Under the pieces are notes generated by a model that saw only the letters and a list, made by a program, of their open reading frames with translations, did not search any database and was not told the DNA's origin. DNA of 21,547 nucleotides from a virus: positions 1 to 21,547 of the IMG/VR virus record IMGVR_UViG_3300005098_000189; one strand, 5' to 3'. Below, one piece after another: positions 14,961 to 21,547 of this stretch. The translations under genes and the position numbers were made by a program. The first letter of the stretch is position 1, and the number at the start of each line of letters is the position of its first letter.

Positions 14961-16508
14961 GTGATTGAACTTAATTTTAACAGTAGAGGTTTAGCACCGT
15001 CTTTAAGAAAAATTTTTCAAAAAGACCCATTAATTTTTCCTGAGAAAGTTTTGGGAGCTAATCTTTGGGATAAGCAGAAAGAAATTTTTAGAGCTATCTA
15101 TAAGAATGAAAGGGTTGCAGTGCCTGCATGTAATCATGCAAGTAAGACTCATACCGCTGCATGTTTAACTCTTTCATTTCTTTTTACATATTGTCCTTCC
15201 AAAGTTATTACAACTTCGGCTTTAAAAGAGCAAGTTAGGGATGCATTATGGAGTGAGATTAGAACTAGAGTTAGATATGCACGAATACCGTTAATGGAAG
15301 AAAAGCATGTAACAACTATGGGAATAAATTTAGGCCCTGATTGGTATGCTGTGGGCTTAAGACCTCAAGACTCTTCTCAAGAAGCTTTTCAAGGAAGGCA
15401 TAGCCCCAATATATTACTTCTGTTTGATGAGGCATCGGGTATATCTGAGAATATTTGGGAAGCAGCCGAAGGATTAATGACCTCTGCCAATTGTCATTGG
15501 CTTGCACTTGGCAATCCATTTGACCCATTATCTCCATTTGGAGAAGCTTGTAACAGTGATGAATGGGTAACCATTCATATCTCGGCTTATGATACTCCTA
15601 ATGTTAAGGCAGGAAGAAATATTTATCCTCGGTTGATGCCTTGGGATTGGCCTGAGAAAAAGAAAAAGCAGTGGGGTGAAGATAGTGCAAGATACCAAAT
15701 TAGAGTTTTAGGCCAATTTCCTGAAAGAGAAGAAGAAAAGTTAATTCCTTATTCACTTGCAAAACAAGTTTTTGAAAGAAAATATAATCGTTGCACTGAT
15801 GAGACATTGGTAATTGGTCTTGACCCAGCAGGATTAGGAAAAGATAAAACAGTTTGGGTTTTAAGACAAGGCTCATCCATTGTTACAATAAAATGGGTTT
15901 TGAATGCAACGGATGAAGCGATTGGCAGAAGAACTTTAGAGTTAGCAGAGACTTATAGAAGTGCTAACAAACCAACGATTATTAATATAGATGGTGGATG
16001 GGGAAAAGGAATATATGAATATCTTAGAAAACATGGCAATCCTGAAAAAGTAAAGATTAACTTAGTCTTTTTATCCTCCAACCCAGAAAATGATGAAAAT
16101 GAATATTATAATTTAAGAACTCAAGTCGGTTTTAGATTGAAAGAAGCTATAGAAAGAGGATTATGTTTATCTCCTTCAGCTAGGATAGTAAAGGATGCTT
16201 GGCTATCTGATATAACTGCTATAAAAGTCATTGAAGACCCCAGAACTGGAAAAAGAAAATTAGAGAATAAAAGAAAGCTGAAGAAGCGGTTGAAGCGTTC
16301 TCCTGATTTTTTAGATGCTACATTACTTAGCTTTGTTTCAAGTTATAGAACTCCTCCTGCTATGGTAACTGTTTCAGAATTTCAATATAAAGAAGCAAAT
16401 AAAGAAGTGATTGATAATTCTATGTTTCCATCTATGATGCACCAATTCAAGATTAAAAGAAGAAATCCAATATTCTTTTTCAGAAATAATATCAGGAGGT
16501 TTTCATGA
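14961..16508 (+). CDS. Terminase large subunit
   Basis: This 515-aa DNA-packaging motor cuts concatemeric phage DNA and pumps it into proheads. ATPase part: P-loop ACNHASKTHTAA (Lys62, Thr63), Walker B ILLLFDEASG (Asp156, Glu157) and coupling motif LALGNP (about 181-186). RNase H-like nuclease part: Asp288 in VIGLDPAGLGKDKT, Asp344 in INIDGGWGKG, and Asp449/Asp452 in SPDFLDATLLS. Length is normal for the family. The P-loop has Ser where Gly usually precedes the Lys. GTG 14961 is the best start, but its ribosome-binding site (AAAGG) is nearly adjacent, so the true start is uncertain. The end overlaps 16505 as ATGA. Confidence 0.92.
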   Translation: MIELNFNSRGLAPSLRKIFQKDPLIFPEKVLGANLWDKQKEIFRAIYKNERVAVPACNHASKTHTAACLTLSFLFTYCPSKVITTSALKEQVRDALWSEIRTRVRYARIPLMEEKHVTTMGINLGPDWYAVGLRPQDSSQEAFQGRHSPNILLLFDEASGISENIWEAAEGLMTSANCHWLALGNPFDPLSPFGEACNSDEWVTIHISAYDTPNVKAGRNIYPRLMPWDWPEKKKKQWGEDSARYQIRVLGQFPEREEEKLIPYSLAKQVFERKYNRCTDETLVIGLDPAGLGKDKTVWVLRQGSSIVTIKWVLNATDEAIGRRTLELAETYRSANKPTIINIDGGWGKGIYEYLRKHGNPEKVKINLVFLSSNPENDENEYYNLRTQVGFRLKEAIERGLCLSPSARIVKDAWLSDITAIKVIEDPRTGKRKLENKRKLKKRLKRSPDFLDATLLSFVSSYRTPPAMVTVSEFQYKEANKEVIDNSMFPSMMHQFKIKRRNPIFFFRNNIRRFS

Positions 16509-17040: not shown

Positions 17041-18348
17041 TTGCCGTATTTTGTGAAAAAATCAACGCCTAAGCCTACAAGATTTTTTGAAGCCACCAAG
17101 CTTTCTTTACCAGGCGGTGAAGAAACAAAAGAAGAAGATTGGGCTGGGTGGAGAAAAATCTCTGGTGTAGGCTTATTAAGGGAATTACGCACTGATGTAT
17201 TTGTTAAGATGAGTCGTTTAGCCAAATGGCTTTATGACTCAAACCCCTTAGCCAAAAGGATAATTGAATACATCAAGAATTTTGTTGTAGGAGAAGGAAT
17301 TTATTTTGAGACCACCGATAAACGAGTTCAAGAAGTATTAAATGCGTTCTGGTTTGATGATGTAAATAATTGGCCTCTTAAACAGCACGATAGAATTTTG
17401 GAGTTATGTCTTTATGGCGAGTGCATTTGGCCTGTTACAGTAAATCCTGCTAATGGTCATGTAAGATTAGGATACATTGACCCTTTGGAGGTTAAAAAGG
17501 TTGTGCCTCATGAAGAAAATTGTTTGATTTTAGATAAGATTATTTTATATGCTCCTCTCAATAAGAAAAATGGGAAAAAGAGAGAACTCAAGATAATTCG
17601 CAGAGATGAAAATCCCAACAGTGATACTTATGGATACCTTACGGGTGAAACCTTTTTCTTTGCCATTAATAAAGTTTCAAATGCGACTAGAGGTGCGAGT
17701 GATTTATTACCTTTGATAGATTGGATTGACTCTTATGACCAGTTTTTATTCACAAGACTTGAAAGACAAATGAATATCAATAATTTTTGTTGGGATGTAA
17801 CGCTAGAGGGTGCAGATGAGCATGAAATAAAACAATTCCTTGATAATCTACCACCTCCCTCACCTGGAACAATCCGAGCACATAACGAAAAAGTTAAATG
17901 GGATGTGGTTGCTCCTAAGCTTGAAGCAAGAGATGCAAATCAAGAAAGCCGTTTGATAAGAAACCATATTTTAAGTGGTGCAGGTTTCCCACCTTATTAT
18001 TTTGCAGATACAGAAGGAGTAAGGGCGGTTGCTTATGAGCAGGCTTTTCCTACCGAAAAAATGCTTATTACCAGACAAAAATATTTTAAAGCAATGATTG
18101 AATATGTATTTAATTTTGTAATAGACCAAGCAATTCTTCATAAAAGATTACCAAGGAATGTTAATCGTAAGTTTGAAATAATTTTTCCTGAAATCTCATT
18201 AAGAGATATAGAGCGGTTAAGCAGAGCATTTAAAAATATCACCCTATCAATAGAACATTTAAAGCAAAATAATTTAATTTCAGATGAAGAAGCTAAGAAG
18301 ATTATAAGAAACTTATTGAGCCAGATGGGTGTTGATTTAGAGAGATGA
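17041..18348 (+). CDS. Portal protein
   Basis: The 435-aa portal forms the ring at the capsid vertex through which DNA enters and leaves. Supporting features are the N-terminal arm, LAKWLYDSNPLAKRIIEYIK then FVVGEGI (first 90 residues), the central LGYIDPLEV, the clip/wing signature ATRGASDLLPLIDWIDSYDQ (about 217-236), and a helical C-terminus (about 370-435). TTG is the start: GGAGG sits 6 nt upstream and no ATG competes. Length is typical of siphovirus-type portals. It follows the terminase by two small genes, and its stop overlaps the next start as ATGA, placing the large enzyme ORF in the head module. Confidence 0.88.
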   Translation: MPYFVKKSTPKPTRFFEATKLSLPGGEETKEEDWAGWRKISGVGLLRELRTDVFVKMSRLAKWLYDSNPLAKRIIEYIKNFVVGEGIYFETTDKRVQEVLNAFWFDDVNNWPLKQHDRILELCLYGECIWPVTVNPANGHVRLGYIDPLEVKKVVPHEENCLILDKIILYAPLNKKNGKKRELKIIRRDENPNSDTYGYLTGETFFFAINKVSNATRGASDLLPLIDWIDSYDQFLFTRLERQMNINNFCWDVTLEGADEHEIKQFLDNLPPPSPGTIRAHNEKVKWDVVAPKLEARDANQESRLIRNHILSGAGFPPYYFADTEGVRAVAYEQAFPTEKMLITRQKYFKAMIEYVFNFVIDQAILHKRLPRNVNRKFEIIFPEISLRDIERLSRAFKNITLSIEHLKQNNLISDEEAKKIIRNLLSQMGVDLER

Positions 18349-21300
18349 TGCGTATAACCGAACTGCATTTAGAGCAATTTAAGAAAGAAGGGGTTGATTA
18401 CGATATTAAACATGCCAAGACTAGATGGAGAGAGTTACTGGCGGATTTGAGGTATCTTTTCAATAATGCTCTACCAAGGATTTGGAAAGGCGAGAAATGG
18501 GGCGATTGGCAAGAAGAAGATTGTTTAAGATATGGAGGTAGGATTATAGATGCCCTTCGTTCTGTTTATTTTCCTTTAATACCTCCTTCAAAAGACGACC
18601 CAAGATATAATACAAGCTACTGGAAAGCCTATCGTAAGGCTGAAGAAAAAGGCTATATCAAATCTAAACCACCTAAACTAGAAGAAGTATCTGAATGGGA
18701 TAAGAAACGCAAAGATGTAATCAAGACATCTTTAGAAGAAGCAGAAAGAAAAATAGATGGTCTTTATTTAACTTATCCGCATGGAGAGTTATTTTGGACT
18801 AAAGAAAAAACTTTGTTAGTGAAGACTAGAAAGTTTGATTTATCCAAACCTCATTACCTTATTGATGATGGCCTTTGCTATGGAATTATCTCATTCAAAG
18901 AACCTAAACGGATTACTAAAAAGCAATTCTTTACAGAGGATTTAAAGAAAAAACATCGCATTTTAGATACAGAAGCTTGGCAGTGGTGGAGGATGTCAAG
19001 AGACAATGCAGTTGAGCCTGAACTTTGGGCTTATGAGGTTAAAAAATTTGAACCGTTTGAAATACCTAAAAGGGTAAAAATACCAAAAGGCATACAGGTT
19101 ATAGTTGATGCAGATAACATTGAATTTGTAGGAGAAGAAGATGAAGAGAAACCTGCAAGGATTGATTGGCCTACAATGGCTACTAAAGAAGCAAAAACTG
19201 ATTACATTAAATTCTATGGCACTAAAGGATATATAGAAGAGGAGAACGATGAGCATAAATATCATGCCTGTATTTTCTTATCTTTAAATAATACAAATAT
19301 CTTATTAGATTATGGAGAAAAGCATCCTGAAGAAATAAAGGAAAGAATAGATATAATTTTGAACTCGCATTGCCACATTGACCACATTTGTCCTGAAATA
19401 TCAAGCTTTGTTTGTCCTTTATATATATCAAAAGAAACCTTGAACAGAGTAGATTTTTCTTTACCTGAAGATATAAGAATTTATGAAGCCAGAAAAGCAT
19501 TTAGCATTGGTAATATAAAAATCACTACTTATCCAGTTTATCATTCTATTCGTGCTCCTATGCACATTTTTAAGATTGAAACAGATGACCTTGTAATAGG
19601 AGTAATGACTGATTTTTTAGGATTTAGAGATACAGATGATGAAGCATCGTTTTACCCAAATCTAGACATTGTAATAATAGACGGTAGTAGTATTACAAAA
19701 GATTTAAGAAGATGGAAGGAAGACCATAACTTAATATTTGGACATGAAAGTGTAATTCACCAAATTGAGAGAATTAAAGATAAATGTGAAAAAAATCCAA
19801 TAATAATCCTCACTCATATTGGGCGTGAAGGTATAGAATGGGGAGACTTACAAATATTACAATATTTACATGAAAGATTTGCTGGAATGCACATATATGT
19901 TGCCAAGGATGGCAGTGTATTTGACTTAAAAACAAAGCGATTTACTGAAGCATTTAAAGGCGAACAAATCTGTAAAGACATAGTTGCAAATCTTCCTTCT
20001 TTTACATGGATACCTGAATTTACAAGCATTACAGGTTCTACCTTATTTACAAAAGACCATGCACCAAGAGACTTAGATGTAATGTGCAAGGCAGAAGAAA
20101 TAAATGGTAAATGGTATATTCCTGTGGATACATCGTTACTGCTTAAGCTACAACGAGCCTATCAATACGCTACAAAGAAAGTTTTGGGGAAGGCGATTAA
20201 GCCTGAGTTTCCACCTCCAGCGTTAATCGGAGCCAACTGGGCTTCCATTCCTGCTTACGATTTAAAACTTGTCCCCAGAAAAAATTCAGAAGTAAGAAGG
20301 ACAGGCGAAGAAGAATTTGAAGAGAAAGTTTATGGAGTGGATTTTAAAGAAAAGCTAAGATTACGCACCAAATCTAAAGACATTGAAAAGATGGCACAGC
20401 AATCGTTAAAAGAAGACAAAATAAAACCACTTCGTTTCTTTATGCCTCTTAAACCAATACGAGTTCAAGGAAAGCATGGAGAAAGAAATACACCAGAAAG
20501 GCTTGTAGAGTTATTTGAACCTAAGCATTATCCTGTATATAACTCGGTTAAAAGGGATGGCTTTCGCTGTCAATGCCATTTTGATGGAAATAGAGTTGTA
20601 ATTTACTCAGAAGATGGCAATGATATTACAGACCAATTGCCCACTATTGTAGAAGCAACCAAAAAACTCAAAGTCAAATCGGTAATTCTGGATGCTGAAA
20701 TTGAACTATGGGAAGATGGATACCACCATCCAAGAGAAGCAGCCATTGCTAAAATTCATTCCAAGGCAATAGATGATAAGGATTTAATTGCCAATTTATT
20801 TGATTGTGTGTATTTAAATAGTGAAGATTTACATAAAGAGCCATTTGAAAAGAGATGGAAAGCATTAAATTCTCTTGGCGTTAAATATTCAAAAGAAACT
20901 AATTTAAATCCAGAAGAAAAACTTAATATTATTCCCCATATCTTATGTAAAACTCCAAAGGAATTACTTAGGGAAACAGAACGCATGAGAAAGGTTAAAT
21001 CAAGTGAAGGCTGTGTAGCTATTGCCCACAATGCAACTTATCCATTAGATGGTAAACCAGATGACAATTCATTTTGTAAGTTTCACAATAATGTGGTGAT
21101 AAGAGGGATAGTAATTGAACCTGTGCAGACTAAAGTAAGCACGGTATACAATTTGTCTTTTGGTTGTTTAGCAGGTAATCATGAAATATTAAAGAAAGAC
21201 CAGACAGAAGTAGGACCTTATGAAAAAGTTTTAATCATAGGAAGCACTTTTGCTGCACCTTATGTAAAACGAGGTAGTGTAATTGAGGTTGAATGTGAAA

Positions 21301-21547
21301 CAATTAACCATATTATTCATGAAAATATTGAAGGTAATCCAGTGGAAATTACAGCTTGGGCACCTAGATTTATGCGGGTAGTGCCAGGTGCTAAACCAGA
21401 TAGTATAGATGATATTTTAAGAAAAGCTAGAAAAGAAAATCATGTCTTACAAGAAAAAATAATCAAATCAGACGGCACAGTAATATATAAAGAAGCAAGA
21501 AAAGAGCTTTATTGCTTTCTTACAGAAGAACCTACATTAACAAGCAA
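18345..21547 (+). CDS. Giant MBL / nucleotidyltransferase-like / ATP-dependent DNA ligase fusion, cut by right edge
   Basis: ATG 18345 (a second ATG follows directly) overlaps the portal stop; the frame is open for 1067 codons to the edge. Residues 1-150 are uncharacterised (YGGRIIDALRSVYFPLIPP). Residues 155-245 form a compact domain (DDGLCYGIISFKEPKRI ... HRILDTEAWQWW) that might be PUA/ASCH-like. Residues 286-525 are a metallo-beta-lactamase fold with H342-x-H344-x-D346-H347, H400, D423 and H491. Residues 540-680 carry GS564/565 with D576-x-D578, as in Pol-beta-type nucleotidyltransferases. Residues 710-915 are a ligase core: K736-R-D-G-F-R741, D783-A-E785, F819-D820, E888-G889, K912. About 918-1035 is an OB fold (KRGSVIEVECETIN, WAPRFMRVVP). 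Ligase and MBL calls are firm; the others are inference. Confidence 0.85.
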   Translation, partial: MMRITELHLEQFKKEGVDYDIKHAKTRWRELLADLRYLFNNALPRIWKGEKWGDWQEEDCLRYGGRIIDALRSVYFPLIPPSKDDPRYNTSYWKAYRKAEEKGYIKSKPPKLEEVSEWDKKRKDVIKTSLEEAERKIDGLYLTYPHGELFWTKEKTLLVKTRKFDLSKPHYLIDDGLCYGIISFKEPKRITKKQFFTEDLKKKHRILDTEAWQWWRMSRDNAVEPELWAYEVKKFEPFEIPKRVKIPKGIQVIVDADNIEFVGEEDEEKPARIDWPTMATKEAKTDYIKFYGTKGYIEEENDEHKYHACIFLSLNNTNILLDYGEKHPEEIKERIDIILNSHCHIDHICPEISSFVCPLYISKETLNRVDFSLPEDIRIYEARKAFSIGNIKITTYPVYHSIRAPMHIFKIETDDLVIGVMTDFLGFRDTDDEASFYPNLDIVIIDGSSITKDLRRWKEDHNLIFGHESVIHQIERIKDKCEKNPIIILTHIGREGIEWGDLQILQYLHERFAGMHIYVAKDGSVFDLKTKRFTEAFKGEQICKDIVANLPSFTWIPEFTSITGSTLFTKDHAPRDLDVMCKAEEINGKWYIPVDTSLLLKLQRAYQYATKKVLGKAIKPEFPPPALIGANWASIPAYDLKLVPRKNSEVRRTGEEEFEEKVYGVDFKEKLRLRTKSKDIEKMAQQSLKEDKIKPLRFFMPLKPIRVQGKHGERNTPERLVELFEPKHYPVYNSVKRDGFRCQCHFDGNRVVIYSEDGNDITDQLPTIVEATKKLKVKSVILDAEIELWEDGYHHPREAAIAKIHSKAIDDKDLIANLFDCVYLNSEDLHKEPFEKRWKALNSLGVKYSKETNLNPEEKLNIIPHILCKTPKELLRETERMRKVKSSEGCVAIAHNATYPLDGKPDDNSFCKFHNNVVIRGIVIEPVQTKVSTVYNLSFGCLAGNHEILKKDQTEVGPYEKVLIIGSTFAAPYVKRGSVIEVECETINHIIHENIEGNPVEITAWAPRFMRVVPGAKPDSIDDILRKARKENHVLQEKIIKSDGTVIYKEARKELYCFLTEEPTLTS

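Follow-up and report, generated by a model that had tools for sequence, protein, structure and literature searches.

Immediately downstream of its portal gene, the 21,547-nt IMG/VR virus record IMGVR_UViG_3300005098_000189 (positions 1 to 21,547; hereafter the window) encodes a fused open reading frame (ORF) that we interpret, with a probability of about 50%, as the N-terminal two thirds of a LigD-like multi-domain enzyme of the capsid locus. The protein would be a polyvalent, Ku-independent enzyme for healing and sealing DNA ends, synthesised as a head component and probably packaged. The basis for this interpretation is the domain architecture, the catalytic residues, purifying selection, the genomic position and, in relatives, fusion to a prohead protease. 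From N- to C-terminus the full architecture comprises a small helical domain, a PUA/ASCH-like domain, a metallo-beta-lactamase (MBL) domain, a nucleotidyltransferase (NT)-like domain, a ligase core (adenylation and OB domains), a NifX-like domain and two LigD-type 3'-phosphoesterase (PE) domains (PE1 and PE2).

All window features described here lie on the plus strand. The gene for the terminase large subunit (14961..16508; phrog_2, E 2.5e-29) is upstream of that for the portal protein (17041..18348; phrog_10963 portal, E 1.8e-39), and the fused ORF (18345..21547) follows, cut by the contig end after its N-terminal 1,067 residues. The first-pass annotation had placed MBL, NT-type and ligase elements in one uninterrupted frame overlapping the portal stop, and both points held: 1,067 open codons (18345-21545) run up to the contig end, and the start codon overlaps the portal stop in the junction sequence ATGA (18345-18348). 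The catalytic residues that it had named, from the MBL metal ligands to the GS..DxD motif at 564-578 and K736, were likewise all in place. In PHROGs, the ORF scored E 7e-12 against ATP-dependent DNA ligase and 1e-11 against metal-dependent hydrolase. An assembly join, which the first-pass annotation had regarded as fatal to its proposal, or read-through of separate genes is a negligible explanation of the ORF. One relative (L004) has a frame break between the NT-like and ligase domains and two others (L011 and L065) carry the modules in separate ORFs, as such an origin might predict; against it, the frame is also uninterrupted in L002, L003, L005 and L069 from different metagenomes, close relatives with 81-94% identity found in other metagenomes by viral contig scans share the same frame, and dN/dS was 0.02-0.20 in all domains with measurable values. 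The independent contigs and dN/dS values together refute an assembly artefact.

The helical domain (residues 27-73; 18423..18563) was identified with a home-made HMM (E 8e-23, 17 loci) and sits between the ligase and PE1 in four relatives (L048-L050 and L052). For the PUA/ASCH-like domain (residues 139-254; 18759..19106), a profile of 18 relatives matched TTHA0113 (1wk2/2dp9) over the whole length of the latter (E 1.6e-4). The MBL domain (residues 285-524; 19197..19916) has the HxHxDH motif, the downstream His, Asp and His and the fold by which the metallo-beta-lactamase superfamily is recognised. Its dinuclear metal site is complete (H342, H344, D346, H347, H400, D423 and H491), as first proposed, and all seven residues are invariant across ten aligned MBL domains. 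Pfam placed Lactamase_B_3 and Lactamase_B_2 at residues 307-478 (E 2e-6 and 3e-6, both over cut-off), and the MBL profile matched PDB 1zkp (E 1.8e-7). In a structure model of window residues 1-690 (mean pLDDT 62), residues 284-528 adopt the MBL fold, superposing on BA1088/YhfI with a Z of 21.8 and an rmsd of 2.8 over 220 residues. Phosphodiester hydrolysis is the likely activity of the modelled domain, because the tied Z matches are to YhfI, PhnP, RNase J, CPSF73 and RNase Z-like proteins and Apyc1 (7u2r, E 3e-8) is one of the many Foldseek matches; a nuclease and a cyclic-nucleotide hydrolase are indistinguishable at this level.

The NT-like domain (residues 540-645; 19962..20279) carries a GS..DLD motif at residues 564-578, and the corresponding G[GS]x(n)DxD motif is conserved among 27 aligned relatives. 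NTP_transf_2 was matched by two of 27 members (best E only 0.017), the profile gave a weak match to an MNT protein (E 0.21), and the region has a pLDDT of about 30 in the structure model. The motif reported in the first-pass annotation stands; the NT fold itself, of the Pol-beta type, to which the motif and the weak profiles point, is a tentative assignment.

The adenylation domain of the ligase core (residues 691-917; 20415..21095) includes a DNA_ligase_A_M match (PF01068) at residues 731-901 (E 9e-21); two of the Pfam families named in the initial reading, MBL and ligase, were thereby recovered. The nucleophile K736 lies in VKRDG (codon at 20550-20552), and the motif-I lysine is present in all 46 relatives compared, as KxDG in 44 and KxNG in two. 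An OB domain (residues 911-1010; 21075..21374), delimited by phmmer alignment and HMM, follows, and the phmmer alignment to the archaeal DNA ligase 4eq5 spans residues 697-1026. The window protein thus combines the KxDG nucleophile and following OB domain of an ATP-dependent DNA ligase, confirming the core originally proposed around an adenylated K736, and its predicted activity is nick sealing. In a ligase tree, most head-locus ligases (40 rows) separate from host and ordinary phage ligases with 92/73 support, in a topology with several long branches of unsure placement.

The remainder of the window (21375..21547) encodes a linker to about residue 1067, and the NifX-like, PE1 and PE2 domains lie beyond the contig end. 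Full-length relatives (1,676-2,036 aa) supplied this missing C-terminus: L003 (1,677 aa) and L002 (1,676 aa), the closest complete relatives, extend the window protein by about 610 residues, and L005 reaches 2,036 aa with an intein. In L003 the NifX-like domain occupies residues 1065-1147, PE1 1164-1520 and PE2 1526-1677. The NifX-like domain (Nitro_FeMo-Co, PF02579) scored over cut-off (E 8.6e-8) and gave a structural Z of 12.7. In a model of L003 residues 1030-1677 (mean pLDDT 74), PE2 (1527-1675) superposes on the archaeal LigD PE domain 3p43 (Z 15.0, rmsd 2.3, 119 residues), the Pseudomonas aeruginosa LigD PE domain (Z 12.8) and the Methanocella NHEJ PE domain (Z 11.8), and the PE2 profile matches the same LigD PE structures by sequence (E 7e-8). 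PE1 is homologous to PE2 (hhalign probability 97, E 4.7e-11) and retains the H...HxDxR signature; its similarity in sequence searches is weak (E 0.16 against the PDB, where PE structures took the first four places; Pfam LigD_N in eight of 27 members, best 2.4e-4), and it is absent from the structural match list of the L003 model, which we do not count against it. HxDxR is present in PE1 of 32 of 33 members and in PE2 of 13 of 28, having been lost in the ANME-virus group. Since PE2 keeps the motif in just these 13, one PE copy is predicted to be often dead across the family; in the window lineage (L003, L002 and L005) both copies retain it. The relatives thus pair the PE domain and the catalytic HxDxR motif of LigD, past the point where the window ends. 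A POL (primase-polymerase) domain had no Pfam match up to E 5 in the complete relatives. The first-pass annotation had suggested looking for a protease or head-morphogenesis domain in the missing part: Pfam detected neither a protease nor a MuF domain in the complete fused ORFs of L003 and L005, and this candidate was set aside. The gene after the L003 fused ORF has a capsid domain (PF25209) and a protease-like N-terminus lacking a Pfam match, and in the window lineage the protease appears to be this N-terminal part, fused to the capsid protein.

Distant relatives were gathered by alignment-based scans and surveyed with home-made domain HMMs, giving 48 non-redundant loci; apart from ANMV-1, all contigs are metagenomic and none was rated complete. 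The common core is NT-ligase-PE1(-PE2). The MBL domain was found in 11 of the 48 loci and the NifX-like domain in four, and because of these low counts both are accessories. This corrects the original proposal, in which the MBL domain was an integral part of the enzyme. Of the 40 testable loci, 34 have a portal gene upstream in the same orientation, 25 of them at no more than 1 kb. In 30 of 35, the gene for the prohead protease or the capsid protein follows downstream or is fused. These counts are lower bounds, as portal and capsid detection used few seeds. The neighbouring portals belong to several Pfam families (SPP1-like, Mu-like, Phage_portal and Phage_portal_3), so inheritance of the slot from a single recent ancestor is unlikely. 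Six loci (L029, L034, L046, L062, L076 and L077, with L034 on the same contig as L013) encode an in-frame fusion to a prohead protease (XkdF/S78). The conserved position in many unrelated viruses and these six fusions lend weight to the earlier suggestion of a head protein, and localisation to the prohead may be predicted from the two together.

The composition of the chain varies further. Three of the protease-fused loci have further DNA-modifying or repair domains: a C5 cytosine methylase in L062; in L076, an adenine methylase together with a second methyltransferase domain; and in L077, an adenine methylase with a uracil-DNA glycosylase (UDG). The result is giant head-locus ORFs of fused methyltransferase, UDG, ligase and protease modules (L062:3372-10853, L076:6147-10421 and L077:5199-10736). 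The chain is split before PE1 in L032, and in L065 its modules are encoded by individual, adjacent ORFs. Intein-like insertions occur at different sites of the same protein, namely the N-terminal helical domain, the NT/ligase linker and PE1 (L004:2324-5245, L005:5977-12084, L031:2866-8523, equivalent to L052, and L048:6420-13286); a profile scan of L005, the one case so scanned, identified an intein and a LAGLIDADG domain. Elsewhere in these loci, a LAGLIDADG-type homing endonuclease lies between the portal and the fused ORF (L002:754-1614; E 2e-4, just under the Pfam cut-off), and the N-terminal 330 residues of a terminase large subunit contain an apparent intein-like insertion (L013:3090-5387). 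Downstream of the capsid gene, L003:14264-15196 encodes, as judged by eye, a sulfotransferase-like protein with a methyltransferase-like end, conserved in L005.

Among 50,697 described phage records the sole relative was ANMV-1, a methane-seep archaeal virus, whose protein AJP62006.1 (KP703175) is annotated just as 'ATP-dependent DNA ligase' and is encoded directly downstream of the portal. As a single query this protein retrieved no viral relatives, which alignment queries did find. The words 'ligase' and 'portal' are absent from the main text of the ANMV-1 paper (PMC4372165). The gene after the ANMV-1 ligase (L007:5868-9368) encodes a 1,166-aa cysteine-rich protein annotated as hypothetical, with a C-terminus (CDYCRDMW...PPYHEHCRCYG) that resembles a MuF head-protein end. 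MAGs with relatives were assigned to Methanophagales, Methanosarcinales and another euryarchaeon, and three of their four loci are next to portal genes. Besides ANME loci, the matches in a scan of Halobacteriota genomes were largely to cellular DNA ligases, about 560 aa long. One Halobacteriota relative (L087; genome G211, contig C77) comprises ligase, OB and PE1 with one in-frame TAG, which could be either pyrrolysine read-through or a broken gene. An MBL match in MT838806 (human gut) was rejected as a separate, ordinary MBL-family protein on a contig lacking recognisable phage genes. RecT and a SleB-type cell-wall hydrolase in the long relatives, and a DnaN-like clamp in the window itself, make a bacterium the more likely host of the window lineage; by the same markers an archaeal host is less likely for the window virus.

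In tailed phages the prohead protease works inside the procapsid. Given the fixed portal-protease slot and the fusion to this procapsid-acting protease, incorporation into the head is the probable fate of the protein, and we propose a model in which virion presence, injection, each activity, the order of steps and circularisation are all predictions. The fused protein would be expressed late, alongside the portal, as a component of the head, gain access to the procapsid by belonging to the portal-protease-capsid assembly or being fused to it, and remain with the packaged genome. Where a 3' end is blocked by a 3'-phosphate or a 3'-terminal ribonucleotide, the PE domains would trim it to 3'-OH; the NT-like domain might contribute a nucleotide, and the ligase, adenylated on K736, would seal a nick or join ends. 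The PUA/ASCH-like and helical domains would bind or position nucleic acid, and the optional MBL domain may hydrolyse phosphodiesters as a nuclease or as a nucleotide-signal phosphodiesterase. In this way the linear genome would be repaired or circularised independently of Ku, either as it is packaged or soon after it enters the cell. The methyltransferase and UDG partners point to a DNA substrate and to a purpose in genome repair and protection. More tentatively, the same reading may extend to a previously undescribed and widespread class of virion-carried, Ku-independent NT-ligase-PE machines of archaeal and bacterial tailed viruses that heal, protect and circularise the genome on entry, in a chain that often adjoins and is sometimes fused to the prohead protease, in some cases with methyltransferases and UDG.

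End-to-end joining normally requires Ku or another bridging factor. Ku (PF02735) was found in none of 25 records, some of which may be fragments, and was positive in a control genome. With Ku absent, the mending of nicks or ends in the incoming genome is at least as good a reading as the joining of two ends; the single-chain enzyme for end processing, nucleotide transfer and ligation first envisaged is strengthened by the LigD-type PE domains, and the joining of two ends stays conjectural. Viral ATP ligases are common, and the protein might instead be an ordinary viral DNA ligase with extra domains for replication or recombination, its gene merely relocated to the head operon. NAD ligase was found in none of 21 records, and in all but one of the 19 (incomplete) records with a ligase match the head-locus ligase was the sole ligase detected, as that explanation would predict. 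We nevertheless consider it unlikely, as the portal-protease/capsid slot is kept across viruses with different portal families, the prohead protease is fused in frame in six loci, the 88-kb record G026 has a stand-alone ATP ligase as well as the head-locus ligase (35735-36280 and 79546-80103), and each of the four ordinary phage ligases that we inspected is encoded by a short gene whose annotated neighbours include no head genes.

Two other explanations retain the multi-domain chain and change its target. A polyvalent, injected counter-defence effector, in which the MBL destroys cyclic-nucleotide signals in the manner of Apyc1, the NT modifies a host target and the ligase and PE domains repair nuclease damage, would accord with the presence of Apyc1 among the many MBL fold matches, with the DNA methyltransferases added in relatives and with the description of polyvalent proteins as packaged, injected mixed activities (PMC5512222). 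It is improbable in view of the restriction of MBL to 11 of 48 loci, the tie of its closest Z matches (including YhfI, PhnP, RNase Z and RNase J), the window protein's lack of a PADLOC family match and a common core of DNA-end chemistry. RNA is a frequent ligand of PUA/ASCH domains, 3' ribonucleotides are good substrates for LigD PE and MNT-type NTs can act on RNA or protein, so the ligase, PE, NT and PUA/ASCH-like domains could be imagined to mend tRNA or mRNA cut by host defences. Such an RNA repair enzyme is very doubtful: the ligase profile matches are DNA ligases, related chains carry DNA methyltransferase and UDG, and a head position offers no obvious advantage to tRNA repair.

A PE domain combined with an ATP ligase is the hallmark of LigD, an enzyme of end healing and break sealing (PMC7719229). 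As in the POL-PE-LIG protein of bacterial and archaeal NHEJ, the preferred LigD-like reading has an ATP ligase core and a PE domain of the same fold in one chain, and the ligase core likewise lacks a recognised N-terminal DNA-binding domain. The viral chain differs in having an NT-like domain instead of a detected POL, two PE copies and additional PUA/ASCH-like, MBL and NifX-like domains, and in its location in the head gene block with no Ku gene in 25 records. Archaeal split systems can have POL outside the LigD-type chain. ANMV-1 AJP62006.1 (866 aa, right after the portal) shares the NT-like, ligase, PE1 and PE2 domains and lacks the MBL, NifX-like and N-terminal domains of the window lineage. 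Mycobacteriophages Corndog and Omega provide a precedent for phage end joining on the phage's own genome, their Ku recruiting host LigD to circularise it, whereas here the LigD-like chain would come from the virus, and Ku was not detected. PMC7719229 refers to Corndog.

Polyvalent proteins are described as combining unrelated activities in chains that are packaged and injected (Iyer et al. 2017; PMC5512222), and the window protein resembles them as a very large chain of multiple unrelated activities encoded beside portal and terminase virion genes. None of their hub domains (zincin, ArdC, ART, SNF2, N6A methylase and MuF) was found in the window protein; N6-adenine methyltransferase, a listed hub domain (PMC5512222), occurs in relatives L076 and L077. 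That survey mentions neither LigD nor metallo-beta-lactamase, and those of its passages on 'ligase' that we consulted concern RNA ligases. It describes a paucity of polyvalent proteins in archaea, whereas the present family occurs in viruses of ANME archaea and is organised around a conserved DNA-repair core, not a changing set of domains. The methylase-helicase DarB of phage P1 is a head-packaged DNA-protection enzyme that acts on injected DNA (PMC5512222); it too is a multi-domain DNA enzyme, and the protein described here would likewise travel in the head, with a ligase-phosphoesterase core instead. The open-licence literature searched, on ANME-1 viruses, jumbo phages, NAD systems and polyvalent proteins, yielded no earlier account of a LigD-like protein at a head locus.

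Little is known of how a linear viral genome withstands nicks, blocked ends and attack by the host from its packaging to its first replication. A conserved chain of ligase and phosphoesterase domains at the capsid locus of many unrelated tailed viruses makes particle-borne DNA repair a testable idea. It widens the concept of polyvalent proteins to include a DNA-repair core and viruses of archaea, and it may open a way to Ku-free end joining from thermophilic settings. The capsid locus and the protease fusions raise the possibility that a DNA repair kit may travel inside the virus particle.
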